From assembly GCF_006517235.1 (NCBI RefSeq), contig NZ_CP041188.1, positions 372,001 to 436,000 of the forward strand: a stretch of 64,000 nt of DNA, in the 5' to 3' direction. The DNA comes from Pseudarthrobacter sp. NIBRBAC000502772 (GTDB lineage Bacteria; Actinomycetota; Actinomycetes; Actinomycetales; Micrococcaceae). Position 1 is the stretch's first letter; each line of letters begins with the position of its first letter. A program made the position numbers and the translations under genes. The notes under the pieces were generated by a model that worked only from the letters and a program-made list of their open reading frames with translations, made no database searches and was not told the DNA's origin. Positions 33,752-56,844 of the stretch are shown piece by piece.

Positions 33752-34202
33752 TTGGACTCCTGAGGTTCGGTACAGCCTATGCTACATGTGTTTGCATGTA
33801 TCGAGATAACCGATGCCTGTCCGCGTTTATTCCAGCGGTGCCAGGTCACCGGCGGTTGCACTCCGGGCGGCATGAAACGAGTATTTGCGTTTTCCGGGAT
33901 TCGCGGGAGGGGCACCCCGGCTACCTAAGCGCTTACGCGATAAGTCCCCAATGCACCTAACAGATCACTTGGCGCTGCCCCTCCACACCTAGCTCTGGCG
34001 GGAGCACGAAATTCCCTATGTAGGACGCGATACAAAAAGCGAGTACTCAATACTGGTGTTTACCTGGCCGGGCTGGTCATATGCTCAATTTACGGGCAGA
34101 GTCACTCGGCCGGGGGTTTCGAATTCCTCTAGAGGCACTGGCTGGATTAGTCGCCGGGGCCGAGACACCAACCGACCGAGACCACCCAGACAGGAGACGA
34201 CC
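33752..34202 (+). other. Intergenic region upstream of the polysaccharide island; carries promoter element A
   Basis: This stretch has no convincing gene. It contains the recurrent element A at 34035-34058 and a second block at 34091-34103 (see separate entry). A ribosome-binding site AGGAG (34194-34198) precedes the first island gene. The frame of that gene is open back to 34056 but the upstream part is not protein-like. Confidence 0.6.
34035..34103 (+). promoter_or_regulatory. Shared bipartite promoter-like element, copy A
   Basis: Block 1 is AAAAGCGAGTACT-n7-GGTG (34035-34058) and block 2 is TACGGGCAGAGTC (34091-34103). The same two blocks, 68-70 nt from first to last base and in the same orientation, stand upstream of both glycosyltransferase operons (50536-50603 and 56654-56723). 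Here block 1 ends 144 nt before the HprK-like gene. Confidence 0.7.
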
Positions 34203-35294
34203 ATGCGCACCTGGCAGAGCAAGGCACTGCACTTCGACATTCACGGCCGCATCACGATCCGCGTCGACGCAAAGGCGCCGTCAGCGACCCAGCTCCAGAG
34301 CATGTTGGCGTGTTTCGCCACCGACACCGAACGGCCGGCCGACATCGTCGTCGACGCCGGGCCGGAGCCAATGCCGGATGCGGGTCTGCTCGAGCACGAG
34401 CTCGCGTACACGGGGAACAGCGTGCGCTTCCAAGCCGATCGGGTCCAGATCGTGAGGGACGCAGAGCAGTGGCGCATTCACGGGCCGGGCGAGCTGTTGA
34501 CCTCCGTGGTCCCTGTTCTCGATGTCGCCATGGTCGGTCGAGGAGCCGGCATGATCCACGCGGCAACGATGGCGTACCGGGGTCACGCGATTGCGCTTCC
34601 GGCCGCCGGAGGGACCGGTAAGACGAGCACCGCTGCCAAGCTGATGCGGCGCGAGGGGTGGTCGTTCATGGGTGACGACTGGGCCTTCCTCGCCGAGGAC
34701 GCCACACTGCTCGGCTACGCGAAGCCGATGTTCATCAAGCCGCACCACCGGGCCATCTACCCGCACCTTTTCGAAGGTGTCCGGAAACCCCTCGTCCCGT
34801 CACAGCTCTCGAAGAGCGTCGGCCGTCTCACGACGGTGGTGCATCCATACGTCATCCGTTATCCGCGCCTCGCGGACTTCTCCAGGCGATGGTCGCCGGA
34901 GCACCGCATGGTCGAGGCGGGGACCGCGTTCCCGGGGCGAGAAGTGACGACCTCGGCCCCGCTCGCGGCTGCCATCTACATCGAGCGCTTCGAGGGCGCC
35001 CGGTCTCGGATCGTCGAGCGGACGAGCGACTGGATGGTCGACCGCATGATCGGCAACTTCCACATCGAGATGGCGGGCTTTTCGCAGCGGGTCGTGACTG
35101 GCCTGGCGGCCACGTCCGTCCTCCCGTGGCGCGAGCACTTCGCGGCGAAGGGGGTCGTGCTGAGCAAGGCACTCGACGGACGTCCCTGCCACCTGCTGCA
35201 GGTGCCCTCCGCGTACACGGCGGACGAAGCGTCGGACGACATCGTCCGGTACCTCGAGGAGCTGCTGCCGTCGGTCCTCGACCAGGAGGCCTGA
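34203..35294 (+). CDS. HPr-kinase-like P-loop protein of polysaccharide locus
   Basis: This 363-residue protein contains an HprK/P-like kinase core: P-loop AAGGTGKTSTAAKL (Lys140) followed by REGWSFMGDDWAFL, which matches the HPr-kinase pattern where Asp residues follow the loop. The regulatory N-terminal half (1-110) is not that of Gram-positive HprK. Such HprK-related proteins are found in bacterial surface-glycan and peptide-maturation clusters, where the substrate is unknown. It starts at ATG 34203 after AGGAGACGACC and is the first gene of a seven-gene operon. Confidence 0.75.
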   Translation: MRTWQSKALHFDIHGRITIRVDAKAPSATQLQSMLACFATDTERPADIVVDAGPEPMPDAGLLEHELAYTGNSVRFQADRVQIVRDAEQWRIHGPGELLTSVVPVLDVAMVGRGAGMIHAATMAYRGHAIALPAAGGTGKTSTAAKLMRREGWSFMGDDWAFLAEDATLLGYAKPMFIKPHHRAIYPHLFEGVRKPLVPSQLSKSVGRLTTVVHPYVIRYPRLADFSRRWSPEHRMVEAGTAFPGREVTTSAPLAAAIYIERFEGARSRIVERTSDWMVDRMIGNFHIEMAGFSQRVVTGLAATSVLPWREHFAAKGVVLSKALDGRPCHLLQVPSAYTADEASDDIVRYLEELLPSVLDQEA

Positions 35295-35295
35295 G

Positions 35296-36126
35296 GTGCG
35301 GGACACAGAGAGTCACAGCCTTGCCGAGGTCACCGCGGTCGTTCCGGCCCGCAACGCGGAGCACCTGCTCCCGCGCTGTCTGGGGGCCCTGCGTCAGTCA
35401 GGTGTAGCCGAGATCATCGTGGTGGACGGATGCTCCACCGACCGCACCGTCGAGCTCGCCCTCGCGGCCGGTGCCCGGGTCCTGAGTGACGAGGGGCGCG
35501 GCCTGCCATGGGCTCGAACGCTCGGTGTGCAGAGCAGCAGCACCCGTTGGGTCCTGCTCGTCGACGCCGACGTCGTGTTCGGGCCCGCAGGGGTTGCCGA
35601 CCTGCTCGCGGAGCTGGTCGAGGGCGGCTACGACGCCCTCCAGGCCGGTCTGGAAAGTGTCGCCGGACCGGGCTACTGGGGGCAGGCGCTGGCACATCAC
35701 CATCGCACCGGCCGCAGCCGCAACTGGTTCGGGCTCGTGGCGACGGTCGTGGACCGGGACCTGATGCTGGGCGTGGGTTTCGACGACTCGTTCAAGTCGG
35801 GAGAGGACATCGAGCTGCGTTGGCGGATGCGGGAGTCAGGGCTGCGAACGGCGGTGTCACGCCGGGTCGTCGTCGAACATCGTTTCGCCGCAGACGACTT
35901 CGACTTCGCGCTCGACCAGTTCCTCATGGACGGAACGGGTCTGGGACGTATGGTCCGCAAGCACGGCTGGCGCGGTGCGAGGTTGGCGCTGCTGCCCTTC
36001 GCCGCGGCAGTCCGGGGCAGCGCCTTGAGCCTCGCCGCGGGCCAGCCTCGGTGGCTGCGCTACTACTTCGCCTTCTGCTGGTATAACTACGCAGGCCTGG
36101 CGAAGGGGTTGCGTCGTGAGCGCTGA
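35296..36126 (+). CDS. Family 2 glycosyltransferase
   Basis: This 276-residue GT-A enzyme starts VTAVVPARNAEHLLPRCLGAL, contains VVDGCSTDRT and the metal-binding VLLVDADVVFG (DxD) and, later, the acceptor region FDDSFKSGEDIELRWRMRE. It would transfer a sugar from a nucleotide donor to a lipid-linked or glycan acceptor. A C-terminal hydrophobic region may attach it to the membrane. GTG start, 1 nt after the HprK-like stop, with AGGAGG overlapping the end of that gene. It overlaps the flippase gene by 11 nt. Confidence 0.88.
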   Translation: MRDTESHSLAEVTAVVPARNAEHLLPRCLGALRQSGVAEIIVVDGCSTDRTVELALAAGARVLSDEGRGLPWARTLGVQSSSTRWVLLVDADVVFGPAGVADLLAELVEGGYDALQAGLESVAGPGYWGQALAHHHRTGRSRNWFGLVATVVDRDLMLGVGFDDSFKSGEDIELRWRMRESGLRTAVSRRVVVEHRFAADDFDFALDQFLMDGTGLGRMVRKHGWRGARLALLPFAAAVRGSALSLAAGQPRWLRYYFAFCWYNYAGLAKGLRRER

Positions 36127-37399
36127 GCGGGGGACCACTGTCAGGGACGGCTCGACCGCCCGGCACTCCGCCTTGCGCAGCTCGCTCGGCCTCATCGTGG
36201 GCAAGGCCGCCCAGACAGGCGCGGGTTTCGCCTTCTGGGTAGTGGCCGCGCGCGCGACGTCCGACCGTGAAGTCGGGCTCACCATGGCCGCCGTCGCGGC
36301 GGTGATGATCTGCACGCAGCTCGCGGTGCTGGGCGCCGGGTCGGCCGTGATCGTCGCGGTGGGGCGAGGGGAGCCGCCCGCGCGGGTGCTGGACGCCGCG
36401 TTCGCCATCGTGGGGGTCGCCGGCACCGTGCTGGCCCTCGGCTACCTCGTGCTGCAGTCGGCCGTGACGCCGGACACGGCCTCGCTATCGGTTCTCTTCT
36501 GGCTCACGTTCCTCGTGGCTGCCGTCACCGGCACCCTGGTCATCGTGCTGGACCAGGCGCTCGTGGCGTTGGGACGCGGTGCCAGCGCGAGCTTAAGATA
36601 CGCGTTGGGCGGCGGGGTCTCACTCGGGGCTGCAGCGCTCGTGGCCTGGAGGGCGCATGGCGCCTCCGCCGACGTGCTGATGGCCTGCTGGACCCTCGGG
36701 ACGACCGTGGCGTGCGTGGTCGGCGCAGTCCAGCTGCGAAGACTGGTCGGCTACCGGCCGCGGTTGTCCTTGCGCCCGGCGCGCGGCCGTCCACTGCTGG
36801 CGGTGGGCCTTCCGTACCAGCTCCTCACCCTCACCGAGCGCGCTCCGGGGCTGGTGCTGCCGCTCCTGCTCGCGCACATGGTGGCGCCGGAGGCAGCTGC
36901 CTACTGGTATCCCGCATGGATGATGGCCTGGGCCGCCTACTCCGCTCCGATGCTGATGGGCATCGTCCAGTTCTCCGAGGGTGTCCGGGACCCGGCCCGC
37001 CTGGTGTCGACCACCTGGGCGAGTCTCCGTTGGTCACTCGTCGTAGGAGGTCTGACTGCCGCCGTCCTCGTCCTCCTCGCTCACCCGCTGCTCAGCCTGC
37101 TGGGGGAGCGGTACGCCGACTCGTCCGCCGGAGCTCTGCGGTGGTTGGCGGCCGGACTGGTGCCGTACGCGGTGCTGCAGGCCTACAACGCCGTGTGCCG
37201 GGCCCTCGGTCGCTACACGGAGGCCATCGTGGTCGGCGTGATGCTCGGAGTCGCCCTCTGCGCCGCAGCGCTGTGGACCGCCGACAGGGGCCCCACCGCC
37301 ATGGCCCTTGCGTGGCTGGTGGTGCTCTCCATTGTGGCCGCGGCGGTCGGACTCCGGCTGGTCGCCGTCCTCCGACGCATAAGGAAGGACGCACGATGA
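36116..37399 (+). CDS. Wzx-like polysaccharide flippase (MATE/MOP superfamily)
   Basis: This 427-residue protein has about 12 membrane helices and begins RSSLGLIVGKAAQTGAGFAFWVVAARATSDREVGLTM, the typical start of polysaccharide/O-unit flippases (LGL-G/K-...-ARxxxxxEVG). It would move lipid-linked oligosaccharide across the membrane. GTG start at 36116; the gene overlaps the upstream GT and the next gene by a few bases, showing tight coupling. No tail extension. Confidence 0.82.
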   Translation: MSAERGTTVRDGSTARHSALRSSLGLIVGKAAQTGAGFAFWVVAARATSDREVGLTMAAVAAVMICTQLAVLGAGSAVIVAVGRGEPPARVLDAAFAIVGVAGTVLALGYLVLQSAVTPDTASLSVLFWLTFLVAAVTGTLVIVLDQALVALGRGASASLRYALGGGVSLGAAALVAWRAHGASADVLMACWTLGTTVACVVGAVQLRRLVGYRPRLSLRPARGRPLLAVGLPYQLLTLTERAPGLVLPLLLAHMVAPEAAAYWYPAWMMAWAAYSAPMLMGIVQFSEGVRDPARLVSTTWASLRWSLVVGGLTAAVLVLLAHPLLSLLGERYADSSAGALRWLAAGLVPYAVLQAYNAVCRALGRYTEAIVVGVMLGVALCAAALWTADRGPTAMALAWLVVLSIVAAAVGLRLVAVLRRIRKDAR

Positions 37400-39186
37400 G
37401 ACACTCGGTGACCGGCACGGTCGATGCGACCAGCCGCACGGAGGGACGCTGGAAGCCCCGCGACGTGTGGTGCGCACTGGCGGGCGTCGTGTCGCTGGCG
37501 CTTGCCGCGGGGGCCGCCTCCACGGTGGCCGTACCCGTGAACAGCGACCTGGGGCTCGTCGCCGTGCTGCCCTACCCGTTCTGGGCGGGGGTTCTGCTTC
37601 TGAACGTCGCCTTCGTCGTGGCGCTGCGGGGGGATGCCGCGGGCCCGGCGCGCCGCCCGGTCATGGTGTGGCTCGTCGTGGTGCTCGTGCTCGTGCTCTT
37701 CGGGACCGCAGCCTTCGTGACGGACGTACCGCGGGGTGAGGTCGCGTTCCGTCATCTCGGCATCGCCGACGCCCTCTCGGGCACCCAGGGGATCGCGCCG
37801 GACACCGACGCGTACTTCAACTGGCCGGGTTTCTTCGCCCTCCTGGCGGCGGTGCTCGAGGCGACCGGTCTCGACCCGGTGGCCGTTGCCCTGTGGGCAC
37901 CGGTGCTCAACATGGGTCTGTGGCTCGCTGCCCTGGGCGTGCTGACGGGCTACCTGACGCGCGATCCGCGACGGCGCTGGCTCGTGCTCTGGATCTTCTG
38001 TCTCGGCAACTGGCAGGACCAGGACTACCTGTCTCCCCAGGCTTTCGGCTTCTTCCTGTACCTCGTCGTGGTCGCGCTGCTCATCGGCCCGTTGGCCGCG
38101 CGGACCCCCGAGTTCCACGGCTACCGACGCGCCGACCTGGCGGCATGGTGGCGAGGGCGGTCGCCCGCCGAGCCCCGGCCGGGGCACCGTGTGAGCGCCC
38201 TCGTGGTGACCCTATTGCTCGTCACTGTCATCTGCGCGAGCCATCAGCTGACGCCGTTCATCGTGCTCATCGCCATCACCGCTCTCACCCTGAGCGGACG
38301 TGTCTGGCCCAGCCGGCTGCCCCTGATCACCGCCGTCGTGCTGACGCTCTGGCTCGTCTACCCCGCGAGTGCATACCTCATCGGGAACCCACCCCTGGCG
38401 GAAGCAGGACTGCTGGCCGCGACCGAGGCGAACGTCATCGACCGCCTGAGCGGGACCGCTGGTCACGTGCTCGTGGTGCAGGTCCGGATCGTTCTCACCC
38501 TCGTGTTGTGGGCACTCGCCGCGGCGGGGGCGGTGCGCGACCGGCGCAGAGGACGTCTCGACATTCGGGTAGTCCTCCTGGCCGTCGCCCCACTGCTGCT
38601 CTTCCCCGCGCAGCTGTACGGCGGGGAGATGCTCATCCGCGTCTCGCTGTTCGCGCTGCCCTTCATCGCCTTGCAGGCGTGCTCGGTCCTCCTTCCCACG
38701 GACGGCAGCACACGCCCCTCCTCCCGCGCCGCGGGGGGCCTCGTCCTCACCTGCTTCCTGCTGGCCGTGCTGACCGTGACGGGCCGTTTCGGGAACGCCC
38801 AGTATGACGTCTTCACCGACCCTGAGATCGCCGCCGTCGCCGCCGTGCAGCGTCTCGCGCCCCCCGGCTCGACGATCATCTCGGCTGCCCACCCGACGCC
38901 GTGGCGCAGCGAGGCCTACCTCGACCACCGGGCCCGGACGATCGACGACATGTGCCGGTCCGACTTGTCGACGGCGACGTGCGGCCCACTCGTCTACGAC
39001 TACGCCCGGCACAGCCCTGGCGGTGCCGTCGTATTGCTCACGCGCTCGTCGGAGGCGAGTCTCGTGCTCCAGGGCTCCAGCAGCACGGGCGGCTTCGCCG
39101 AGCTGGAGAAGTGGCTGAGCACGCAGGACGGCGTGGAGCTCGCGTTCAGCAACGTCGACGCACGCGTGTACCGGGTGACGCCATGA
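37396..39186 (+). CDS. Large polytopic membrane protein, possible GT-C glycosyltransferase or polymerase
   Basis: This 596-residue protein has a dozen or more membrane helices and a soluble C-terminal part (about 470-596). The extracytoplasmic loop after helix 3 contains SGTQGIAPDTDAYFNWPGFFALLA. That segment, and the long loop with LGNWQDQDYLSPQAFGFFLYL, suggest a GT-C-type transferase or Wzy-like polymerase rather than a transporter, but no certain family is recognised. Start ATG 37396 in an ATGA overlap; the frame is open far upstream within the flippase gene but that is a coincidence of the GC-rich sequence. Confidence 0.7.
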   Translation: MRHSVTGTVDATSRTEGRWKPRDVWCALAGVVSLALAAGAASTVAVPVNSDLGLVAVLPYPFWAGVLLLNVAFVVALRGDAAGPARRPVMVWLVVVLVLVLFGTAAFVTDVPRGEVAFRHLGIADALSGTQGIAPDTDAYFNWPGFFALLAAVLEATGLDPVAVALWAPVLNMGLWLAALGVLTGYLTRDPRRRWLVLWIFCLGNWQDQDYLSPQAFGFFLYLVVVALLIGPLAARTPEFHGYRRADLAAWWRGRSPAEPRPGHRVSALVVTLLLVTVICASHQLTPFIVLIAITALTLSGRVWPSRLPLITAVVLTLWLVYPASAYLIGNPPLAEAGLLAATEANVIDRLSGTAGHVLVVQVRIVLTLVLWALAAAGAVRDRRRGRLDIRVVLLAVAPLLLFPAQLYGGEMLIRVSLFALPFIALQACSVLLPTDGSTRPSSRAAGGLVLTCFLLAVLTVTGRFGNAQYDVFTDPEIAAVAAVQRLAPPGSTIISAAHPTPWRSEAYLDHRARTIDDMCRSDLSTATCGPLVYDYARHSPGGAVVLLTRSSEASLVLQGSSSTGGFAELEKWLSTQDGVELAFSNVDARVYRVTP

Positions 39187-39524
39187 ACGGCGTCAGCGTC
39201 AGCCGGCACACCTTGGTGCTCGGTCTCGCGGCCGTCGCGCTGTCGGTGGTGACGCTCGTCGGGCTGCCCACACCGCTGCAGGCGGTCGCCGCGATAGCGG
39301 TCCTGATCCTGCTCCCGGGGCAGGCACTGGCCCGACTCCTGCAGGTGACCGACCTCGCGCTCAGCGCTTTGCTCGTCCTGGCGCTCGGCCTCGCCACGCT
39401 CACGGCGGTCTCCACGGCGATGTTTTACCTCGCTGTGTGGTCCTGGCAGGCGTGCGTCGTCACGATGGGCGTCATTACCGTCCTCGCGTGCCTGGCACGC
39501 GCACGACAGGAGGCCGCGTCATGA
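39183..39524 (+). CDS. Small membrane protein (about four helices)
   Basis: This 113-residue hydrophobic protein includes LILLPGQALARLL, reminiscent of the start of DUF1616-type membrane proteins. It overlaps both neighbours by 4 nt (ATGA). No charged active site is visible, so it may be a partner or accessory for the large membrane protein encoded just upstream. Not a known family by eye. Confidence 0.6.
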   Translation: MNGVSVSRHTLVLGLAAVALSVVTLVGLPTPLQAVAAIAVLILLPGQALARLLQVTDLALSALLVLALGLATLTAVSTAMFYLAVWSWQACVVTMGVITVLACLARARQEAAS

Positions 39525-39736
39525 TCGACGTCATTATCAACCTGGCGGGACTGCTCGCGGCTGCCGCCCTGCTCATCACCCTCATCGCGCTCGAGGTCCG
39601 ACGCGCCGGACCAGATGCCGGGCAGCCCACTCGCCTGCGGCTCCTTGGCCTAACGGTGGGCCCCATGGTCGTCGCCGTCATGTGGACGTTGTACGTGCTC
39701 CTCTTCCTTCCGCGATTGCTGGGACTGCTCACGTGA
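39521..39736 (+). CDS. Small two-helix membrane protein
   Basis: This 71-residue protein has two hydrophobic helices (about 5-25 and 46-68) with a basic loop containing RRAGPDAGQPTRLRLL. It overlaps the previous gene by ATGA and the next by GTGA. Conservation of such tiny coupled genes would support a role in the island. No family recognised. Confidence 0.6.
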   Translation: MIDVIINLAGLLAAAALLITLIALEVRRAGPDAGQPTRLRLLGLTVGPMVVAVMWTLYVLLFLPRLLGLLT

Positions 39737-40785: not shown

Positions 40786-40906
40786 GCCGTACCGGTGTCA
40801 GCGCATCGCCGGCGGCGAGCGGGGGAAGTATTCTGGCTCACCGCCGCAGGTCATTACCCGGACCGGCGTGGCTGACAAGTGACCTGGGCTCTGCCAGACT
40901 TCCGTC

Positions 40907-41329: not shown

Positions 41330-41430
41330 CTTCCCGCCTCCTGGCCAAAGCAACGCGGGGTCATTTAATGCCCCTCAAGAGGCTTTTTTCGGGCACTAAG
41401 TGACTTCGCGTTGCCTATGGAAGAGGGCAC

Positions 41431-41470: not shown

Positions 41471-41500
41471 TGCAGTTTGAGGCTGCGTAACCGGAAAAGG

Positions 41501-41953: not shown

Positions 41954-41970
41954 GTTAGTCAGTCCCTTCC

Positions 41971-43298: not shown

Positions 43299-43724
43299 AT
43301 GTGAACCCACCTCCTTTGGGCTAAGCGGTTACGGCATTTCCGTAACAGGAGGTTCATTTGCGATGCCGTGCGATGCCCGGCCAACAGAACGGAGGCAGGG
43401 CGCAGCACAGACTTCAATATCTTAGTGCATTTGGACCGGATAGGCGATTCGCGCTTGACTCAAGGCTACGCGTAGCGCGCGCGTCGCCGGAAGCGTCCGG
43501 CGGCTTATGTGGATAACCCGGAAAACAAGCTCCGCGCCTGAGGCAAAAAGTCTCTGGTGCACGCCGCGGAACAGGGCTATATTTGCAAGAACGGCTGGGT
43601 ACCGTGCTGGACGCAATGACGCGGCCAGGATAGCCGGTCCGCGTGTCGCGCAAGCGGCTGGATGGACCCAGGATTTTGGATAGAGCAAGCAGTTCGGTCT
43701 CCTTCTTCGATGGATGGGGACCAC
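43299..43724. other. Divergent intergenic region between rpsF and the LAL regulator
   Basis: About 425 bases with no protein-coding signal. It contains the rpsF leader element (43309-43353) and the two divergent promoters, which were not assigned with certainty. A DnaA-box-like TGTGGATAA is present at 43508-43516. Confidence 0.5.
43309..43353 (-). promoter_or_regulatory. rpsF leader element: hairpin, CCG and anti-Shine-Dalgarno (S6:S18-like)
   Basis: On the mRNA the order is anti-SD ACCUCCU (43347-43353), hairpin GUUACGG-AAAUG-CCGUAAC (43328-43346), CCG next to its 3' side, and the Shine-Dalgarno AGGAGGU (43309-43315). The anti-SD and SD are perfectly complementary over 7 nt, giving a two-stem structure that can shut off translation. 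Known S6:S18 autoregulatory leaders have a hairpin with a CCG bulge. The match here is by eye. Confidence 0.62.
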
Positions 43725-46418
43725 ATGTCGTTAATTGGCAGAAGCAGGGAATTGGACCGGATACTCTCCGTAATCAGGGGTCCTAAAGATTCAGCCCTCA
43801 AGGTGGTGGGCCGGCGTGGGATGGGCAAATCCGCCCTCCTGTCCGAGATTCCCCGCCTTTCCGACTTCCGGACCGTTTTTCTCACCGCGAGCGTGTCCGA
43901 GTCCGACTGGCCGCTCTCCGGCCTTACCGCGCTCCTCACCGGCATCGATGACCCCGTCCTTAACCGCTTCGCCGATGAACTGCTCCGCGATTCCAGCGGC
44001 GCCATGAACGTCCCCACTGTCTCCACCATGCTGCTCAACGGGCTGCACCAGCGCTCGTCGTCCCGGACGGTCATCGTCATCGATGATGCCGACCAGCTGG
44101 ACCCCAGCAGCCAGGCCGTGATCGGCTACCTGGCACGCCGGCTGACCGGGACGGACATGGCACTGTTTATGAGCGTGCGGGAAGAGACTGCCGACAGTCC
44201 CTTCGCCTCCCTGCCGGCCCTCCAGCTGGCGCCGCTGAGCTACAACGACACGGTCCGCATGTTGGAGTCCATTCCGGCTCGGCAGACCGCGACTGCGGCG
44301 GTCCACGCAGTTGCCGCGGCCACCCAGGGGAACCCGCTCGCCGCCGTCGAGCTTTTTGGGCTGCTGCTGGATCGCCAAGCCGAGGGAAAATACGCACTCC
44401 CCGTCCCGCTCCCCGGCAAAGGCAGCTTCGAGGCCGAGTTCGCCGCCACCGTGGGCGGGCTCTCGCCAGGTGCGAGGCAGGTCCTGGACCTCCTCTCGCT
44501 GTCCTGCCGCAGCGATATCGCCACCTTGGAACGGGCATGCGACCAACTGTGGGGCGGGATCGACGAACTGCTGGCAAATGGCATGGTCAACAGGTCCGGA
44601 CCACACCTGAGGATCCAGGACCAGCTGCTCCGGGGCTACGTCTATGCTGCCATGACACCGGCAACGCGGACCGCCAGCCACCGTGCCATGGCGGCCGCGG
44701 CGGAGCCCGCGGATCCCTATGCCCACCGCTGGCATCTGAGTTTTACCGCTTTGGAGCGGCAGACTCCGTTTGGCCTGCTCCGGTTTGCCGTTGACCTGAT
44801 CCGAAGCGGCGAGGTGCCCTTCGCCGTCGAGTACATTGAACGGGCCCTGACGATCAACCCCTGGGAAGCGGAGACGACCGCCAGGCTCACCACGGTGGCC
44901 GAACTGCTGTTGAACAGGGGTGAGTTCGTCTACGCCAAGCGCTACCTGGACTGGGCCCAGCGGGTGACGCGGAACCCTGCCTTGGTCCTTCGACTGACAG
45001 GCCTCGCCTTCGAGATCCAGTTCATCCAGGGCGGCGCCGTGCGGTCCAGCATGGTGCTCCGGCTGGTGAAGGAACTCGGACAGCATGATCCGGCATTTGC
45101 AGCCCGCCTGCTCGTGGCCGGTGCGCTGTACTACGCGGACCGTTGGGAGCTTGAGGACGCCACCGGCCTGGTGCAGTACGCCGAGAAGTACATGGACCAT
45201 GCCTCCCCCGACTGCCTGGCGCTGGCGGAGAGCGCCCGGCGACTCATCGAGGTGATCGGCGGGAAGTCCGGACAGTTCAGCCGCAAGCCCGACGGCGGGA
45301 ACGAAACGGTGGCGGCCCTTCTGGTACAGGGCCGCGCGCTGGCCTATGCCGAACACCATGCTGCCGCCCAGGAGGCCTTTGCCCGGGTGCGGAACGTCCT
45401 GGAGGCCAGTACCGTCAATTGGCGGGAGACCGCCAATTTCTTTGCTGTGGACAACGAAATCCGTGCCGGCAACGTCCGTAAAGCCGTGAAACTGATCGAG
45501 GACCTTGAACTGGCCGAACCGGAAACCAAATACCACCGTGGAATGCGGCACGTCTTCCGGGTCTGGCGGGCCAATGCACTCGGAAACGAGGAACTCGCCC
45601 ACGCCTACGCAACAGACGCACAGCACTTCTCCGGGGCGGAAAGCCACCCGGCCATCACGGCGCAACTGGCCGCGTGCCAGGGGCACTTTGCCCTCATGCG
45701 CGGAAATCTCGCCGAGTCCTTCGCGCAGCTGTCCCGGGCCGCGGAGATCGGCCAGGCCTTCAGCAACCCGACTCTGCTGCGCTGTGAGGCCGATCTGGTG
45801 GAAGTCCTGGTCAGGCTGGGCAGGCACAGGGAAGCCGCCCAGGCACTGTGGCACTTGGAAAGCCGGGCGGTGGGCCTGCGTTCGCCCTGGCTCATGATGG
45901 CGGTTGCCCGAAGCCGGGCGATGCTGGCTGACGGCGAGCAGTCCCTCCAGATGTTCAACGATGCACTTGCAAACAGGAACGCCCAGGAGTCCCTGCTGGA
46001 ACGCGCCAGGACACTGCTCTGCTACTCCGAACGCCTCAACGCCTTCGGCCGCATTCGGAGCGCCCGGGACGGTCTGCTTCGTGCCAAAGTGATGTTCGAC
46101 GAAGCGGGTGCCCATGCCTGGGCCCAGCACGTTGACTCGCTGCTGCTCGACGAGCGGGTGGAACCAGCCGGCACGCCCGACAATCCGGCGATGCTGATGC
46201 TTGCAGACCACGAACGCGTGCTGGCCCGAATGGTGGCCCGCGGGATGCGGAACAAGGAAATCGCGGCCACCCTCTATGTGTCCGTCCGTACCGTGGAGGT
46301 GCGCCTGACTGCGATTTACAGGAAGCTCGGAGTCGAATCACGAGCCCAGCTGACGGCCCTTGCGGCCGGCAAGGCAGCCGCCCTGGCTAAGGAGCCGTTC
46401 GTCCTTCCTGCCGTCTAG
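43725..46418 (+). CDS. LAL-type LuxR transcriptional regulator (large ATP-binding)
   Basis: This 897-residue regulator has an N-terminal AAA/STAND ATPase with Walker A VVGRRGMGKSALL (residues 28-40) and Walker B RTVIVIDDADQLD. A TPR-rich middle follows, with a C-terminal LuxR helix-turn-helix (VARGMRNKEIAATLYVSVRTVEVRLTAIYRKLGVESRAQL). Start at ATG 43725; ATG 43710 (five residues earlier) is also possible. It stands alone facing the polysaccharide genes, so it is the obvious candidate to control them. LAL proteins respond to ligands or protein partners; the signal is unknown. Confidence 0.9.
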   Translation: MSLIGRSRELDRILSVIRGPKDSALKVVGRRGMGKSALLSEIPRLSDFRTVFLTASVSESDWPLSGLTALLTGIDDPVLNRFADELLRDSSGAMNVPTVSTMLLNGLHQRSSSRTVIVIDDADQLDPSSQAVIGYLARRLTGTDMALFMSVREETADSPFASLPALQLAPLSYNDTVRMLESIPARQTATAAVHAVAAATQGNPLAAVELFGLLLDRQAEGKYALPVPLPGKGSFEAEFAATVGGLSPGARQVLDLLSLSCRSDIATLERACDQLWGGIDELLANGMVNRSGPHLRIQDQLLRGYVYAAMTPATRTASHRAMAAAAEPADPYAHRWHLSFTALERQTPFGLLRFAVDLIRSGEVPFAVEYIERALTINPWEAETTARLTTVAELLLNRGEFVYAKRYLDWAQRVTRNPALVLRLTGLAFEIQFIQGGAVRSSMVLRLVKELGQHDPAFAARLLVAGALYYADRWELEDATGLVQYAEKYMDHASPDCLALAESARRLIEVIGGKSGQFSRKPDGGNETVAALLVQGRALAYAEHHAAAQEAFARVRNVLEASTVNWRETANFFAVDNEIRAGNVRKAVKLIEDLELAEPETKYHRGMRHVFRVWRANALGNEELAHAYATDAQHFSGAESHPAITAQLAACQGHFALMRGNLAESFAQLSRAAEIGQAFSNPTLLRCEADLVEVLVRLGRHREAAQALWHLESRAVGLRSPWLMMAVARSRAMLADGEQSLQMFNDALANRNAQESLLERARTLLCYSERLNAFGRIRSARDGLLRAKVMFDEAGAHAWAQHVDSLLLDERVEPAGTPDNPAMLMLADHERVLARMVARGMRNKEIAATLYVSVRTVEVRLTAIYRKLGVESRAQLTALAAGKAAALAKEPFVLPAV

Positions 46419-48456: not shown

Positions 48457-48559
48457 GGCAGGGAAAGCACTCCGGTGGCAAGGCGCACTCCATGGCGGGG
48501 GCCAGCTTCAGTGCAGCCCGCTCCTCGACGGGGCTAAGTTCGTCGACGCGTTCGCTCAC
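48440..48559 (-). CDS. Short gene, probably a remnant truncated at the repeat junction
   Basis: A 39-residue reading (VSERVDELSPVEERAALKLAPAMECALPPECFPCLIPDR) starts with GTG in a GTGA overlap with the stop of the upstream glycosyltransferase, so it looks like a further gene of that operon. It is acidic with three Cys and no family. In the second copy of the operon the same start gives only six residues (MSEHPI). Its 3' end overlaps the convergent acyltransferase gene, consistent with truncation by rearrangement. Confidence 0.4.
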   Translation of the reverse strand: MSERVDELSPVEERAALKLAPAMECALPPECFPCLIPDR

Positions 48560-49554
48560 TGGACCTCCCTCCATGGTGTGCCTATGAGCGCTGTCCCGGC
48601 CGACGCGCGGCCCTCGATATGCGCGATCCGGCGCCCTCGCAGATAGCCGGCGGCAGTGCACGCCAGAACGGCCATCACCGCACCAGCGCGGCCCAAGCCG
48701 TGAGGGTCTGATCCCCGGCCCCAATCACGAATCCCGGAAAATACGGCCCGCGGCAGTACGCTCCGGACGTAGCGCCGTTCAGGGCCGAGTGCCCGCTTGT
48801 GGCCAACGATCTGGCTGACCTGGGCTTTGGAGATACCTTCGGACCAGGAACGCGACAGCATGTAGGGGATGGTTCCCCTGTCCGCCGGCACATGGTGACG
48901 GACCAAAGCGGCGGGTTCGTAGACGATCCGTGACCCAGGCGTGCCCATCTTGGAGCGGATGCAAATTTCGGTCTCCTCGCACCCGAGCGGTTTCGTGCCC
49001 TGCCGGCCGAGGGAGACATTGAAGCCGCCCACCTGGCGGAGGACTTCGAGCCTGAAGGACATGTTTGCGCCGATGACGTTCCGGACCTCGGAGGCCACCT
49101 TGGGCATTCCGCGGTGGCTGCATCCTACGATCCAGTCGAGCTCTTCACCGAAGTAGCCCGGACGGCCCGCTTCCCACACCGGTTCCACGCGGCCGCCGAC
49201 GGCCAGGACATCAGGATCGTCATAAAGGGCAAGCAGGCGCTCCAGCCAGTCCGGCGCGGCTTCGGCGTCGTCGTCCAAGAAAGCCACGACGTCGGCGTCT
49301 GCCAGGCCCACCCCGGTATTTCGTGCGCCTGAGAGCCCCGGAGGGCCGGAGCTCTCAACTACTGTCACGTTGTCCACGATTTCGATGAGCCGCTCGTACA
49401 GAGCCTCGTTGTGGTCAATCACCACCAGGACCTCCTGGGGCGCGACCGTTTGGGCCCGGACGGACTCGATGACATCCAGTAGCAGGTCCCAACGCTTCGC
49501 GGTGTAGGTACAAATGACAATAGAGGCGGTCGGCGGCGGGTTAAGGCTAAACAT
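48556..49554 (-). CDS. Family 2 glycosyltransferase (copy 1, second gene of pair)
   Basis: This 332-residue GT-A enzyme has IVICTYTAKRWDLLLDVIESVRAQ, ARNTGVGLADADVVAFLDDDAEAAPDW with the DDD metal site, and GCEETEICIRSKMG. It starts at ATG 49552-49554, with an 8-nt overlap with the upstream GT stop. The protein is about 85% identical by eye to the copy at 54675, with an almost identical DNA patch at 49020-49232 between more diverged parts. The C-terminus is hydrophobic with a possible membrane helix (AGAVMAVLACTAAGYLRG). It would add a sugar in the same pathway as its partner. Confidence 0.88.
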   Translation of the reverse strand: MFSLNPPPTASIVICTYTAKRWDLLLDVIESVRAQTVAPQEVLVVIDHNEALYERLIEIVDNVTVVESSGPPGLSGARNTGVGLADADVVAFLDDDAEAAPDWLERLLALYDDPDVLAVGGRVEPVWEAGRPGYFGEELDWIVGCSHRGMPKVASEVRNVIGANMSFRLEVLRQVGGFNVSLGRQGTKPLGCEETEICIRSKMGTPGSRIVYEPAALVRHHVPADRGTIPYMLSRSWSEGISKAQVSQIVGHKRALGPERRYVRSVLPRAVFSGIRDWGRGSDPHGLGRAGAVMAVLACTAAGYLRGRRIAHIEGRASAGTALIGTPWREVQ

Positions 49555-50419
49555 GCTGGCCTCCCCGAGCCGCGGAGAGGACTGTTTGGGGATCCATAGG
49601 CGTCCGCGGGACGCTGACATTTGCGTAGGTATATTTCACCCGGCGGAGGGCTTCAGGTCTGGCGCCTGCGGTGGGCGCCTCCCACATGGTGCATTCGCGC
49701 GCCAGCGTTCCCAGTACCCGCCAGCCGTCACGGAACGTCTGCAGGTTCGACGCGCCGGAGATCCGGTCCAGCTCCAGGCTGGGGACTTCGGCAATGCGCA
49801 GACCGGCCTTTGCCGCCCGGACAATCAGCTCGGTCTCAATTTCAAAGCCGTCCGATTCCAGCTGAAGGATCTCCAGGCATTCCCTCCGAAACGCAATATA
49901 TCCATAGCAAAGGTCAGAGTAGTTGCTATGCAGGACCGCATTGGCCAATCCGGTCAGAGCGCGGTTGCCGGCCTTCCTCAGCCGGGTCAGGTCTTCGGAT
50001 CCTCCGCCCGTGACATGGCGCGAGCCCTTAACGAAGTCGAAATCGTGCTGAAGCGGGGCAACGAACCAGCCGATCTCCTGGGGATCCATGCTGCCATCCG
50101 CGTCCAGCATGACAATGATGTCCCCTGAGGCTGCGGCAAAACCCGACCGGAGGGCCACGCCCTTGCCCTTGCGCTGCTCATCGACGATGACAAGGTTCTC
50201 GCGGATAGCGCGGGCTACTCCCACCGTGTTGTCCGTGGAACGGCCGTCCACGATGACAACCTCGTCCACATACGAGGGAATCCGGCGAAGAACCCACGGG
50301 ATATTCCTCGCCTCGTTCAGGGTGGGAATAACGACACTGACTGACGCCCTCGGAGCTTCGAAGGCCAGCGTCGGGAATGTTATTGGGAGCTGGGTTGAAA
50401 TAGACAAATGCCTCACCAC
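49547..50419 (-). CDS. Family 2 glycosyltransferase, dolichol-phosphate-sugar synthase-like (copy 1, first gene of pair)
   Basis: This 290-residue GT2 has ASVSVVIPTLNEARNIPWVLRRIPSYVDEVVIVDGRSTDNT, then VMLDADGSMDPQEI (DxD) and RHVTGGGSEDLTRLRKAGNRALTGLAN. This is close to polyprenyl-phosphate-sugar synthases, so it may charge a lipid carrier. The start is GTG 50417-50419, with GTG 50416 and TTG 50407 as alternatives. It is nearly identical (~99% DNA) to the gene at 55675, differing mainly at its last residues (AARGGQHV versus LVRGA). Confidence 0.88.
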   Translation of the reverse strand: MVRHLSISTQLPITFPTLAFEAPRASVSVVIPTLNEARNIPWVLRRIPSYVDEVVIVDGRSTDNTVGVARAIRENLVIVDEQRKGKGVALRSGFAAASGDIIVMLDADGSMDPQEIGWFVAPLQHDFDFVKGSRHVTGGGSEDLTRLRKAGNRALTGLANAVLHSNYSDLCYGYIAFRRECLEILQLESDGFEIETELIVRAAKAGLRIAEVPSLELDRISGASNLQTFRDGWRVLGTLARECTMWEAPTAGARPEALRRVKYTYANVSVPRTPMDPQTVLSAARGGQHV

Positions 50420-50822
50420 TTCATGACGCTTGCGGATTTAGTCAACTCCGCACTCGGCTCGGAAGTCGGGCGCGGCACTAGCGCTTCATCCGGTCATGGG
50501 TCTGGTCTCTGGCCCAGCTCTCATTCATTGCCATTGACTCTGGCCGTGCAAAGAGCCTACGTGGCGCTCCATGAGCTATCACGAGTAGTCAGTACTCGCT
50601 TTTAAGAGCACTCCCGCCGGCCGTTCGTAAGTACAGGGATTTACCAACGGGTGAATTCTTTAGGTATGGGGTATTAGGAACCCAGTAATTATTAGGTACA
50701 GGGCTGTCATTGTGCGGCCTCATTGGGCGCTCCTACGCTGGGTGCCTAGGGCTTCTGCCGTCGTTTCTGTCGACGTATATGCGGAGCTCAGGCGTGACAT
50801 CCAAGAACCCAGGAGATCAGCC
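50420..50822. other. Divergent intergenic region with promoter element B
   Basis: About 400 bases between the first GT operon and the giant secreted protein. It has no gene. Element B (50536-50603) faces the GT operon. The part near the giant gene contains repeats of TTAGGTA and GGGTATTAGG-like A/T-rich sequence (50660-50700), unlike neighbours and a possible promoter, and a RBS AGGAGATCAGCC before ATG 50823. Confidence 0.55.
50536..50603 (-). promoter_or_regulatory. Shared bipartite promoter-like element, copy B
   Basis: On the minus strand block 1 is AAAAGCGAGTACTGACTACTCGTG-like (50603-50580; 12 of the first 13 nt match copy C allowing Y, all 13 match A) and block 2 is GCACGGCCAGAGTC (50549-50536). 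Block 1 ends about 160 nt before the GT gene at 50419. It lies on the strand of that GT operon, exactly as copy A does for the island. Confidence 0.7.
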
Positions 50823-53800: not shown

Positions 53801-54572
53801 TGTGGCGGTGACGGCGAATGTGACGGGCACGTTCTCGGAGGCGATGGATGCCTCGACGGTCACCTCGAGCACGTTCACGCTGAAGGCGGGGACAACGACC
53901 GTGCCGGCCGCTGTGACGTACAGCAGCACGGGCAACGTTGCGACGTTGAACCCGACTGCTGACCTGACGGCAAACACGACGTACACGGCGACGATCGAGA
54001 GCGGCCCCACTGGGGTGAAGGATGTTGCCGGCAACGCACTGGCGACGGACAAGACCTGGACCTTCACCACGGCTTCCGCGGGCGGCGGCACGCCCGAGAC
54101 CGTCACGCTCACGGCTACCGCTGACAGCTATGTGACGAGCGCGGCGCCGGGGACGAACAACGGCACAAGTACCTTGCTGGGTGTGGACAACAGCCCGGTG
54201 GAGATCACGTACCTGAAGTTCGACCTGTCAGCGTATGCGGGCAGGACCATCCAGAGCGCAACGTTGCAGCTGCGCAGCGCCGGGAGCGGGTCAACGGGCA
54301 CGCAGAACATCAAGCTGGTCGCCGATGACAGCTGGACCGAGACTGGGATCACGTACAGCCTCCGCCCGGCGCTCGGCACCAGCATCGGCACCCTCGGCCC
54401 GACAACCACCAACACCAACTACAACATTCCGCTGACGGTCAGCGGACTGACCGGTGAGCTCGGCCAACAACTCTCCCTGGGAATGGACACCACCAGCGGT
54501 GACGGCCTGGACCTCAACTCCAAGGAGACCGGCAGCACCTTCGCACCCAAGCTCATCCTCACCCTGAGCTAG
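50823..54572 (+). CDS. Giant secreted beta-propeller protein with Big_5 and DNRLRE (CBM96-like) repeats
   Basis: This 1249-residue protein has an N-terminal basic stretch, a hydrophobic signal (about 41-65, cleavage near ASAAP) and a propeller-like domain (about 66-460). The last 787 residues form two 394-residue units (463-856 and 857-1249). Each unit has two near-identical Big_5-type Ig domains (TAPTVTGTSPTDGATGVAV...; 114 residues each) and one DNRLRE/CBM96-type domain (TADSYVTSAAPGTNNGTSTLLG...). There is no LPxTG, transmembrane tail or lipobox. It may bind glycan or stick cells to surfaces. The start ATG has a good RBS. It lies between two copies of a GT operon. Confidence 0.85.
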   Translation: MKINRPVKWLSQALVLSTLGVRRGGGRSAGLRLRGSRKLRLPALLTALLLALCGVLVVPVTASAAPGDVGVEGPSHSGTGTPTGTKRAESALWFNDGLWWGNLWDTASSDFHIFRFNAATSSWVNTGVATETRANTHHDVLWDGTTLYVASHQFVNDGLPAEPNFPTLMRRYSYNSSTKTYSLLAQSSTIINNYKVETLTIDKDSTGRVWATWQQGNRIYLNVTGTDGKTWGTPFQHPASLSNVSVDDTSALIAFGPGKMGLMWSRQVGGSTDGMYWSYHVDGASNTAWTTPVAAVSGQGSSDDHMNLKWLDSSGDRVFAAIKTSFTSAPQPLIQLLALSGTTWSAHQIAPVSECPNRVIVLIDESTQRLRTFATYPKPSGTTNAGVCTSSGGAIYEKSSPLNNISFTTAKTARIVDADQYVHNVTSTKQNLNSAAWGTANSGLLVLADVNATSRYWHYHDPSGGGGDTTAPTVTGTSPTDGATGVAVTANVTGTFSEAMNASTVTSSTFTLKAGTTTVPAAVTYSSTGNVATLNPTADLTANTTYTATIESGPTGVKDVAGNALATDKTWTFTTAPAGGGDTTPPTVTGTSPTDGATGVAVTANVTGTFSEAMDASTVTSSTFTLKAGTTTVPAAVTYSSTGNVATLNPTADLTANTTYTATIESGPTGVKDVAGNALATDKTWTFTTASAGGGTPETVTLTATADSYVTSAAPGTNNGTSTLLGVDNSPVEITYLKFDLSAYAGRTIQSATLQLRSAGSGSTGTQNIKLVADDSWTETGITYSLRPALGTSIGTLGPTTTNTNYNIPLTVSGLTGELGQQLSLGMDTTSGDGLDLNSKEAGSTFAPKLVLTLSGSGGGGDTTAPTVTGTSPTDGATGVAVTANVTGTFSEAMNASTVTSSTFTLKAGTTTVPAAVTYSSTGNVATLNPTADLTANTTYTATIESGPTGVKDVAGNALATDKTWTFTTAPAGGGDTTPPTVTGTSPTDGATGVAVTANVTGTFSEAMDASTVTSSTFTLKAGTTTVPAAVTYSSTGNVATLNPTADLTANTTYTATIESGPTGVKDVAGNALATDKTWTFTTASAGGGTPETVTLTATADSYVTSAAPGTNNGTSTLLGVDNSPVEITYLKFDLSAYAGRTIQSATLQLRSAGSGSTGTQNIKLVADDSWTETGITYSLRPALGTSIGTLGPTTTNTNYNIPLTVSGLTGELGQQLSLGMDTTSGDGLDLNSKETGSTFAPKLILTLS
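52209..53390 (+). repeat. 1182-bp coding repeat, unit 1
   Basis: Unit 1 of two tandem coding units. It begins at AGCGGTGGTGGTGGTGATAC and is repeated at 53391 with an offset of exactly 1182 bp. Only a few differences are seen (for example GAGGCC versus GAGACC and CTCGTC versus CTCATC near the end). A nested repeat of 342 bp (52221 versus 52563) lies within it. Confidence 0.92.
53391..54572 (+). repeat. 1182-bp coding repeat, unit 2
   Basis: Second unit, almost identical to 52209-53390, ending at the stop codon. High identity means recent duplication or ongoing homogenisation; assembly collapse or expansion here is also possible. Confidence 0.92.
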
Positions 54573-54591
54573 GCCACAGGAAGAGGACTAA

Positions 54592-54635
54592 ACATGGCCG
54601 GGACTCCATCCTTAAGGATGGGGTCCCGGCCATGT
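54592..54635 (+). terminator. Terminator after the giant protein gene
   Basis: A near-perfect inverted repeat (CATGGCCGGGAC...CCATCC-TTAA-GGATGG...GTCCCGGCCATG) 20 nt after the stop, followed by TTTT. It has one mismatch (T/G at the inner arm). It also lies downstream of the convergent GT copy 2. Confidence 0.88.
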
Positions 54636-54674
54636 TTTGCGACGCGCCCGTCGCAGGTCAGATGGGGTGTTCGC

Positions 54675-55673
54675 TCACTGGACCTCGCTCCACGGTGCGC
54701 GCGCAATGACGGTCCCGGACAGCGGGCTGCCCTCCACGTGCGCCATCCGGCGGCCGCGTACGTACCCGGCGGCCGTCCAAGCCAGGACTGCGATGACGGC
54801 TCCCGCCCGGCCCAGCCCCTGCGGGTTGTCGCCCCGGCCCCAATCACGAATCCCGGAAAAAACTGCCCGTGGCAGTACGCTGCGCACGTAGCGCCGTTCA
54901 GGGCCGAGAGCCCGTTTTTGGCCTACCACCCGGCTGACCTGGGCTTTGGAGATACCTTCGGACCAGGAACGCGACAGCATGTAGCGCAATGTCCCCCTGT
55001 CCGCCGGCACGTGGTGGCGGACCAAAGCCGCCGGTTCGTAGACGATCCGCGATCCGGGTGAGCCTATCTTCGAACGGATGCAGATCTCGGTCTCCTCACA
55101 GCCAAGGGGCAAGGTGCCCTGGCGCCCCAGCGAAAGGTTGAAGCCGCCCACCTGGCGGAGGACTTCGCGCCTGAAGGACATGTTTGCGCCGATGACGTTC
55201 CGGACCTCGGAGGCCACCTTGGGCATTCCGCGGTGGCTGCATCCTACGATCCAGTCGAGCTCTTCACCGAAGTAGCCCGGACGGCCCGTTTCCCACACCG
55301 GTTCCACGCGGCCGCCGACGGCCAGGACATCAGGATCGTCATAAAGGGCAAGCAGCCGTTGAAGCCAGTCCGGGGCTGCCTCGGCGTCGTCGTCGAGGAA
55401 GGCCACAATGTCCGAGTCGGCAAGTCCGACGCCGGTGTTCCGCGCTCCGGACAACCCGCGTGGACCACTGCTCTCCACCACCGTCACGTCATCTACAATT
55501 TCGGTGAGCCGCTCGTAGAGGTCCGCGTTATGGTCAATCACCACCAGGACCTCCTGGGGTGCAACTGATTGGGCCCGGACGGACTCTATGACGTCCAGCA
55601 ACCGGTCCCAACGCCTTTCGGTATAAGCACAAATGACGATCGTTACGCTCGGACGTGCACCACGATCCAGCAT
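54675..55673 (-). CDS. Family 2 glycosyltransferase (copy 2, second gene of pair)
   Basis: This 332-residue GT is the duplicate of the one at 48556, exactly 6119 bp away. It keeps the same motifs: IVICAYTERRWDRLLDVIESVRAQ, FLDDDAEAAPDW and GCEETEICIRSKIG. The start is ATG 55671-55673, 1 nt after the upstream GT stop; unlike copy 1 the genes do not overlap. The downstream GTG reading is only six codons (MSEHPI), unlike the 39 codons in copy 1. The diverged parts may give a different acceptor or sugar specificity. Confidence 0.88.
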   Translation of the reverse strand: MLDRGARPSVTIVICAYTERRWDRLLDVIESVRAQSVAPQEVLVVIDHNADLYERLTEIVDDVTVVESSGPRGLSGARNTGVGLADSDIVAFLDDDAEAAPDWLQRLLALYDDPDVLAVGGRVEPVWETGRPGYFGEELDWIVGCSHRGMPKVASEVRNVIGANMSFRREVLRQVGGFNLSLGRQGTLPLGCEETEICIRSKIGSPGSRIVYEPAALVRHHVPADRGTLRYMLSRSWSEGISKAQVSRVVGQKRALGPERRYVRSVLPRAVFSGIRDWGRGDNPQGLGRAGAVIAVLAWTAAGYVRGRRMAHVEGSPLSGTVIARAPWSEVQ

Positions 55674-55674
55674 G

Positions 55675-56538
55675 CTACGCACCCCGAACGAGGGAGAGAA
55701 CCGTTTGGGGATCCATAGGCGTCCGCGGGACGCTGACATTTGCGTAGGTATATTTCACCCGGCGGAGGGCTTCAGGTCTGGCGCCTGCGGTGGGCGCCTC
55801 CCACATGGTGCATTCGCGCGCCAGCGTTCCCAGTACCCGCCAGCCGTCACGGAACGTCTGCAGGTTCGACGCGCCGGAGATCCGGTCCAGCTCCAGGCTG
55901 GGGACTTCGGCAATGCGCAGACCGGCCTTTGCCGCCCGGACAATCAGCTCGGTCTCAATTTCAAAGCCGTCCGATTCCAGCTGAAGGATCTCCAGGCATT
56001 CCCTCCGAAACGCAATATATCCATAGCAAAGGTCAGAGTAGTTGCTATGCAGGACCGCATTGGCCAATCCGGTCAGAGCGCGGTTGCCGGCCTTCCTCAG
56101 CCTGGTCAGGTCTTCGGATCCTCCGCCCGTGACATGGCGCGAGCCCTTAACGAAGTCGAAATCGTGCTGAAGCGGGGCAACGAACCAGCCGATCTCCTGG
56201 GGATCCATGCTGCCATCCGCGTCCAGCATGACAATGATGTCCCCTGAGGCTGCGGCAAAACCCGACCGGAGGGCCACGCCCTTGCCCTTGCGCTGCTCAT
56301 CGACGATGACAAGGTTCTCGCGGATAGCGCGGGCTACTCCCACCGTGTTGTCCGTGGAACGGCCGTCCACGATGACAACCTCGTCCACATACGAGGGAAT
56401 CCGGCGAAGAACCCACGGGATATTCCTCGCCTCGTTCAGGGTGGGGATGACGACACTGACTGACGCCTTCGGAGCTTCGAAGGCCAGCATAGGGAATGTT
56501 ATCGGGAGCTGGGTTGAAATAGACAAATACCTCACCAC
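55675..56538 (-). CDS. Family 2 glycosyltransferase, dolichol-phosphate-sugar synthase-like (copy 2, first gene of pair)
   Basis: This 287-residue enzyme is the duplicate of 49547-50419 with a near-identical sequence (only about ten single-base differences over 830 nt were seen). The C-terminus ends LVRGA rather than AARGGQHV. GTG start at 56536-56538, preceded like copy 1 by the promoter element C. As the first gene of the pair it probably primes the lipid carrier. Confidence 0.88.
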   Translation of the reverse strand: MVRYLSISTQLPITFPMLAFEAPKASVSVVIPTLNEARNIPWVLRRIPSYVDEVVIVDGRSTDNTVGVARAIRENLVIVDEQRKGKGVALRSGFAAASGDIIVMLDADGSMDPQEIGWFVAPLQHDFDFVKGSRHVTGGGSEDLTRLRKAGNRALTGLANAVLHSNYSDLCYGYIAFRRECLEILQLESDGFEIETELIVRAAKAGLRIAEVPSLELDRISGASNLQTFRDGWRVLGTLARECTMWEAPTAGARPEALRRVKYTYANVSVPRTPMDPQTVLSLVRGA

Positions 56539-56844
56539 TTCATGACGCTTGCGGATTTCGTCAACTCCGCACTCGACTCAGAAGTCGGGCGCAGATTTAT
56601 CGCTTTATCCGGTCATGGGTCTGGTCTCTGGCCCCAGCTCTCATTTAGCCTTCGACTCTGGCCGTGAAGATGAGCCTATGGCTGGCCTGAGGAGCCTGTC
56701 ACCAGTGGCAGGTACTCACTTTTGAGAGCCGGATATACGTTCCCTACTCAAGTACACCGCCGACATCCGTCAGCGGGCGGACCAAACGCTGGGAGGCCCC
56801 TTCCGGCCAGATAGCCGAATTGGCTGACCGCCCTCAGGCCACGC
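56539..56844. other. Intergenic region with promoter element C
   Basis: About 300 bases between the second GT operon and the aminopeptidase, whose 3' end faces it. It has no gene. The first ~120 bases are a diverged duplicate of the region upstream of copy 1; element C lies at 56654-56723. Confidence 0.6.
56654..56723 (-). promoter_or_regulatory. Shared bipartite promoter-like element, copy C
   Basis: On the minus strand block 1 is AAAAGTGAGTACC-n7-GGTG (56723-56700) and block 2 is TCACGGCCAGAGTC (56667-56654). It begins about 160 nt before the GT gene start at 56538. It is the same element as A and B, with a 70-nt span. Confidence 0.7.

Follow-up and report, generated by a model that had tools for sequence, protein, structure and literature searches.

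A 24-bp inverted-repeat box at sigma-A-type promoters of Pseudarthrobacter and its relatives, a candidate operator of LuxR-type activators

A 64,000-nt window of the one-contig genome (4,803,563 bp) of Pseudarthrobacter sp. NIBRBAC000502772 (C1:372001-436000) carries three copies of a promoter-like element made of two conserved blocks, and raises the question of whether these copies represent one bipartite operator of a surface-polysaccharide regulon, as an earlier note on this DNA had proposed, and of which regulator would read it. The copies were found as described in that note, at 34035-34103 on the forward strand (A) and at 50536-50603 (B) and 56654-56723 (C) on the reverse strand, spanning 69, 68 and 70 nt with both blocks as claimed, and the claimed distance of 144-161 nt was correct to within 1 nt when counted between the last base of block 1 and the first start codon. 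A scan of the whole genome for both blocks, which the note had suggested, returned these three matches and none in a reversed control. The bipartite element is not general, since eight further boxes of the block 1 type are present in the genome and none of them (0/8) has block 2; one of the eight lies in the window, at 15397 on the forward strand, and was absent from the note. Blocks 1 and 2 are thus different things and block 1 is a free-standing box. On balance, block 1 is probably the operator of a LuxR-type activator, the most likely binders being one or more of the large ATP-binding regulators of the LuxR family (LAL proteins) encoded in a tandem array elsewhere in the genome, where the box would be old and autoregulatory and from where it would have spread into a scattered regulon of the Arthrobacter group.

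Copies B and C are related by duplication, as had been proposed (2,072 bp at 89.2% identity), and their homology starts approximately 6 nt upstream of the box. Further upstream the two are dissimilar, with 44 of 106 aligned positions identical, as is the stretch from the box to the -10 hexamer (10/21 positions), while the boxes share 18 of 24 positions and the leaders 114 of 129. The region of copy A proved otherwise dissimilar, again in line with the earlier description, its top match to B being the 24-mer of block 1 alone (87.5%, E 0.007), and the comparison of A with C yielded no match better than E 0.002.

Block 1 is an inverted repeat, CGAGTA-N5-TACTCG, which is extended to 24 bp by AAA(A) at its left and GTG at its right end, and the base counts of 78 distinct boxes display its dyad symmetry. 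In the window it is present as box A (AAAAGCGAGTACTCAATACTGGTG, 34035..34058, +, without mismatch to the degenerate pattern), box B (AAAAGCGAGTACTGACTACTCGTG, 50580..50603, -, a perfect CGAGTA-N5-TACTCG dyad), box C (AAAAGTGAGTACCTGCCACTGGTG, 56700..56723, -) and the fourth box, which lacks block 2 (AAAGACGAGTACCCGCTACTGGCG, 15397..15420, +). Scanning the genome with the pattern AAANNYGAGTACNNNNTACTSGTG revealed 11 boxes with at most 1 mismatch and six with 3, while none had 2, compared with four matches at up to 3 mismatches in the reversed control. At 20-22 nt after the box stands a TANNNT or TTNNNT hexamer, the predicted -10 element: TATGCT at 34080..34085 (+), 21 nt after box A; TAGGCT at 50554..50559 (-), 20 nt after box B; TAGGCT at 56673..56678 (-), 21 nt after box C; and TAGCCT at 15442..15447 (+) for the fourth promoter. 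Such a hexamer is found at 20-22 nt in all 11 boxes with 0-1 mismatches and in three of the six matches with 3 mismatches, which may or may not be real. Among 95 non-redundant boxes, drawn from 135 distinct ones, it was detected at 20-23 nt in 79, compared with 0-6 of the 95 in each of fourteen further windows of 4 nt placed in the range 0-59 nt.

Regarding distribution, a sample of 61 genomes of the genus, scanned with up to 3 mismatches to a stricter consensus, contained 215 boxes in 53 genomes, against three in the reversed control. In a scan of 396 genomes of the order, with the pattern loosened at two left positions and 1 mismatch allowed, boxes were present in ten, eight of the same genus and two of other genera of the family; the same pattern was not detected in any of the 361 genomes from other families of the order. 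Among named genome contigs, 19 stretches with exact matches were found, all from Arthrobacter, Pseudarthrobacter or Paenarthrobacter, a set from which the window's own genome was possibly left out. The motif, its distribution over genome and genus and its fixed distance to the -10 hexamer are seen directly, and the proposal that the element is promoter-like and recurs beyond chance is borne out.

Relative to the predicted transcript start, the box spans approximately -57 to -34 with its centre near -44, and the -35 position falls at its right edge, where inspection of the listed sites revealed no TTGACA-like hexamer. At promoters of class II activators, the operator takes the place of the -35 hexamer. 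Because it combines a dyad with a sigma-A-like -10 hexamer at a fixed distance of 20-22 nt, block 1 fits a candidate activator site over the -35 region of sigma-A-type promoters. An alternative sigma factor was set aside in view of the sigma-A-like -10 hexamer and the dyad form of the 24-bp box.

The locus at which the box is most consistently kept is the LAL array. In the window's genome (approximately 1.858-1.864 Mb) the order is LAL1-LAL2-box-sufS, with the box 71 nt behind LAL2, and several relatives have the order LAL1-LAL2-box-LAL3-LAL4-box; loss of LAL3 and LAL4 from the window's genome is only one reading of this difference, because sufS is not always directly behind the second box. 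The array LAL2 (906 aa) has an N-terminal P-loop ATPase domain (AAA_16, E 1.4e-9) and a C-terminal GerE domain (E 3.7e-13), the architecture and approximate length (about 900 aa) that define the LAL family; its top NCBIfam match is AbsR2 (E 2e-33), at 115.9 bits against an equivalog cut-off of 850, so that it is not assigned to AbsR2 itself. All 63 genomes of the genus and 12 of 17 from the family's other genera were found to encode a LAL2 homologue (E up to 1e-30), with identity down to approximately 30% outside the genus.

Among 30 LAL2 loci, each of the 29 that were evaluable carries a same-strand box less than 280 nt 3' of the gene, with scores of 11.8-39.1; in the background, random 400-nt pieces of the window with its boxes included, the 95th percentile is -5.0 and the 99th is 10.9. 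With a weight matrix built without the array boxes, 35 of 40 further gaps behind LAL2, a few of them from the same genomes, contained a same-strand site scoring at least 3.5. Seven of the eight genomes without boxes in the genus scan have such a site behind LAL2, the eighth being outside the gap sample. Whole arrays from 20 genomes (L314-L333) all have a box-like site behind LAL2, and 12 of the 20 have a second behind the last LAL gene. In these arrays two to five LAL genes stand in tandem, and box-like sites occur both in the gaps and after the genes. In two genomes with a box from outside Arthrobacter (G405 and G310), the array box is the sole match. Directly behind the second box, sufS was found in five of the 12 arrays that have one (G010, G018, G024, G046 and G032), and a box before sufS was dropped as the general array layout for this reason; in six of the 12, sufS was not in the fetched stretch, and it is located behind the LAL2 box in G310 and G000.

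The most diverged version of the array site has TANNNT exactly 20 nt on in all eight genomes of its clade (G010, G018, G019, G024, G032, G043, G046 and G049); their orthologous place and this fixed hexamer in the G010 clade count in favour of the low-scoring gap sites. The corresponding variant, CGAGTAC-N2-CTTACG, had 17 matches in 63 genomes, 13 of them in the LAL array, and a separate regulon under this variant was rejected, as three of the four matches elsewhere are in other clades. In the G010 clade (L314-L320) the two array sites carry changes in opposite half-sites, the site behind LAL2 reading TTACG in its right half and that behind the last LAL gene reading GGGTAA or similar in its left half. 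The conservation at the array is observed directly, and a site kept at a regulator locus where little else keeps it is the usual sign of autoregulation. On these grounds the array LAL2 or its tandem partner is a better candidate for the binding protein than the LAL protein encoded in the window.

The 24-bp box would accordingly act as the operator for a LuxR-type (GerE-domain) activator, which when bound would recruit RNA polymerase in place of the -35 element (class II activation). The activator itself would be a member, or a pair, of the tandem array of large AbsR2-like LAL proteins, and the array box the ancestral autoregulatory site, from which in the Arthrobacter group the box would have spread to about a dozen promoters, forming a scattered regulon of polysaccharide operons (A, B and C), ANTAR and Hpt signalling proteins and small membrane and secreted proteins. 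From the sequences we infer activation over repression, the identity of the binding protein, the direction of spread and the signal. A more tentative version, which we consider possible and rather doubtful, has paired LAL (STAND-type) ATPases with an operator behind each pair and one half-site per LAL protein, the site having been copied into a regulon that would tie envelope polysaccharide to ANTAR/Hpt signalling; the assignment of one half-site to each paired LAL protein is suggested because the half-sites of the array drifted separately in the G010 clade.

Several observations weigh against the assignment to the array. No same-strand box-like site was detected in five of the 40 gaps (G041, whose position was estimated, G200, G100, G369 and G172), several low-scoring gap sites come close to the top score of 50 shuffles, that of G023 falling below it (8.2 versus 13.1), and some low-scoring sites are without a clear -10 hexamer, for example in G033, G023 and G059. 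Several arrays do not have sufS immediately after the box. The array LAL proteins are nearly identical in the recognition helix, which leaves no basis for singling out one of them as the binder; genomes that lack regulon boxes also encode LAL2 homologues, and their presence or absence therefore does not discriminate. Genes for another regulator, a BTAD-REC-GerE protein, are also targets in some genomes. Adjacency is no proof of binding, and an unlinked regulator could have the array among its targets.

That last possibility, an unlinked conserved regulator such as a NarL-type response regulator that reads the box and has the LAL array as its oldest target, is in our judgement unlikely without being far-fetched. 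MacR, a response regulator of Streptomyces coelicolor, has a consensus, reportedly TGAGTACNNGTACTCA, to which the half-site GAGTAC is similar, and the presence of Hpt and BTAD-REC-GerE proteins among the targets would fit a phosphorelay. However, the MacR-like reading has to accommodate a spacer that differs by one base, with 5 instead of 4 nt between GAGTA and TACTC in the copies of the window, the search patterns having had fixed spacing and 4-spaced sites not having been sought; no other regulator was seen beside the box across genera, although no systematic search was made. The BTAD-REC-GerE protein itself was rejected as the reader of the box, since it has no match in the window's genome (E up to 1e-40), nor, at the same threshold, in most of the genus sample. 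The LAL protein proposed in the earlier note as the common regulator (43662..46418, +, with AAA_16 and GerE domains) has orthologues in 29 of the 61 genus genomes, including a copy 98% identical in the close relative G030, and was rejected as a general regulator by its distribution: boxes are not confined to genomes that encode it, since 26 of the 32 lacking an orthologue have them, and two of the 29 with one are without boxes (up to 3 mismatches). That it acts at least at the polysaccharide operons is quite improbable. In its favour, the 29 genomes with an orthologue hold 149 boxes (mean 5.1) and the 32 without hold 66 (mean 2.1), and in eight genomes its reading frame is divergent to a box-bearing operon with its start approximately 290-390 nt from the box (up to 4 mismatches); however, shared ancestry may explain the excess of boxes, neither the most box-rich genome (G048, 10) nor G033 (8) encodes the protein, and its recognition helix, VRTVEVRLTAIY, differs from the VRTVEGHLY of the array LAL proteins.

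Two further readings concern the box and not its binder. An operator over the -35 position could equally block RNA polymerase, and the LAL protein SCO6993 works as a repressor (PMC9628970), but the missing TTGACA-like hexamer and the fixed distance to the -10 hexamer make a repressor operator overlapping a -35 element improbable here. Similarity by chance, or a mobile repeat, could draw on the segmental duplication of B and C and is otherwise refuted by the genus counts against their control, the -10 spacing, the conservation at the LAL array and the unrelated flanks, so that its probability is close to nil.

Block 2 starts 7-8 nt after the -10 hexamer, at the predicted transcript start: in A as ACGGGCAGAGTC (34092..34103, +), in B and C as ACGGCCAGAGTC (50536..50547, -, and 56654..56665, -). 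Because of this position block 2 is assigned to the predicted leader of the polysaccharide operons, outside the operator. Allowing up to 2 mismatches, it was present in 16 distinct box regions, 15 of which are at operons of the A type or of the glycosyltransferase (GT) type of B and C, and one operator made of both blocks was rejected because block 2, absent from the other eight boxes of the genome, is elsewhere almost wholly of this polysaccharide type. Conservation upstream of orthologous GT operons, the lack of which would have counted against the earlier proposal, is borne out. Twelve aligned, hand-chosen GT leaders are invariant for ACGG-CAG at the start and in 50 of 171 columns, and other box regions of the polysaccharide type carry ACGGCCATAGGG or ACGGCCACAAGC. 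The GT leader ends in ATGAAGTGGTGAG, a three-codon open reading frame (ORF), M-K-W, which overlaps with the beginning of the operon's first gene, in most cases one for a glycosyltransferase; in the window it is located at 50413..50424 (-) as ATGAAGTGGTGA in operon B and at 56532..56543 (-) in operon C. Its 14 distinct occurrences in the fetched loci all start at a distance of 126-180 nt downstream of the box start (up to 4 mismatches), and the M-K-W-stop ORF is also present in L060, L063, L072, L079, L095, L105, L109, L144, L163, L187, L189 and L213. This arrangement suggests translational coupling or leader control. A structured leader RNA was set aside, the consensus fold of the same twelve leaders (-9.69 kcal/mol) having a covariation term of -0.17, with two-sided changes in three of 15 pairs, and Rfam yielding no match at gathering thresholds in the window and none at E up to 1 in 56350-56800. 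The leader of operon A has block 2 alone in common with the GT leaders. Its presence there by chance is unlikely, because two of 20,000 random 60-nt pieces match block 2 with up to 1 mismatch; descent of the A and GT promoters from a common ancestor and a function of block 2 are equally likely.

Regarding the genes behind the boxes, the 11 boxes of the genome comprise A, B, C, that at 15397 and seven outside the window: one before a GAF-ANTAR protein (4.22 Mb; ANTAR above and GAF just below the Pfam cut-off), one before an Hpt-domain protein (4.12 Mb), the array box at the sufS promoter behind the LAL pair (1.86 Mb), and four before small membrane, secreted or unnamed ORFs, partly judged from translations (0.13, 0.80, 0.95 and 4.17 Mb), the last of which is followed by a protein-kinase-like gene. 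Among 81 sites with a downstream gene called, a hand-picked set with many orthologues and no census, the larger groups of first genes encode GAF-ANTAR proteins (11), a small membrane protein (10), GT pairs (7, with 3 more in which the call fell on the next gene), SufS (6) and Hpt proteins (5). Of the proposed surface-polysaccharide regulon it thus holds that the box is common to the three polysaccharide operons, but these account for only three of the 11 boxes, and the largest cluster is GAF-ANTAR. The BTAD-REC-GerE protein is a target in G002, G036, G028 and G032, and in G010 at 4 mismatches. In two loci (L194:1270-4237 and L195:2387-5606) a histidine kinase gene lies beside that of a response regulator of unusual make-up, which combines Trans_reg_C-BTAD with receiver and GerE domains and whose promoter has the box in at least four genomes. 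GT-type promoters in L060, L063, L072, L076, L079 and L106 have a common spacer, TTAGGTAGGGG, between box and -10 hexamer, which is possibly a second site, for the divergent LAL protein.

In the window, operon A encodes an HprK-related protein (34203..35294, +; weak HprK_rel_A match, 34.8 bits against a cut-off of 200), a family 2 glycosyltransferase (35296..36126, +), a flippase-like membrane protein (36116..37399, +; Polysacc_synt below the Pfam cut-off) and a hydrophobic protein without Pfam or NCBIfam match (37396..39186, +). Operon B has a first glycosyltransferase of family 2 (49547..50419, -), whose start the mini-ORF overlaps, and a second (48556..49620, -); operon C has the duplicate of the first (55675..56538, -) and likewise a second glycosyltransferase (54675..55739, -). 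Between the duplicated pairs (50919-54112, -) open frames with Ig-like repeats, judged by eye, and two weak DUF6405 matches may represent a broken or repetitive adhesin-like gene. The gene after the fourth box (15481..16167, +) has a signal-peptide-like start, judged from its translation, and like boxes with TAGCCT at equal distance are present in L129, L146 and L150.

The literature searched (box fragments, MacRS, topical and AbsR/IniR queries, with subscription papers mostly uncovered) contained no described regulon with this box, and within it both box and regulon appear undescribed, the LuxR-type activator regulon being known as a kind. The window's genome offers a clean, testable regulon of 11 promoters for a common group of soil bacteria. 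If the assignment to the array is true, LAL regulators, for which binding sites are ill defined, would also gain a strict consensus, and the function of a LAL protein encoded by every genus genome sampled would become approachable. The promoters resemble those of class II activators (CRP, NarL and LuxR types) in having a dyad over the -35 region, a centre near -44 and a fixed distance to a sigma-A -10 hexamer, whereas activation is here deduced from sequence alone. With the MacR/MacS system they share the half-site GAGTAC in a dyad, going by the consensus as it is said to be, but the spacer of the box is one base longer, the AAA upstream and GTG downstream are additionally conserved, and the gene set is a different one. 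AbsR2 and SCO6993 belong together, and the array LAL2 has, like these Streptomyces LAL proteins and MalT, a P-loop AAA domain and a C-terminal GerE domain. SCO6993 binds palindromes, one in its own promoter included, and no consensus could be predicted for it (PMC9628970), and the sites of MalT are direct repeats, the same having been proposed for TpdR (PMC6099782). In contrast to SCO6993, MalT and TpdR, one strict inverted-repeat box here serves about a dozen promoters.

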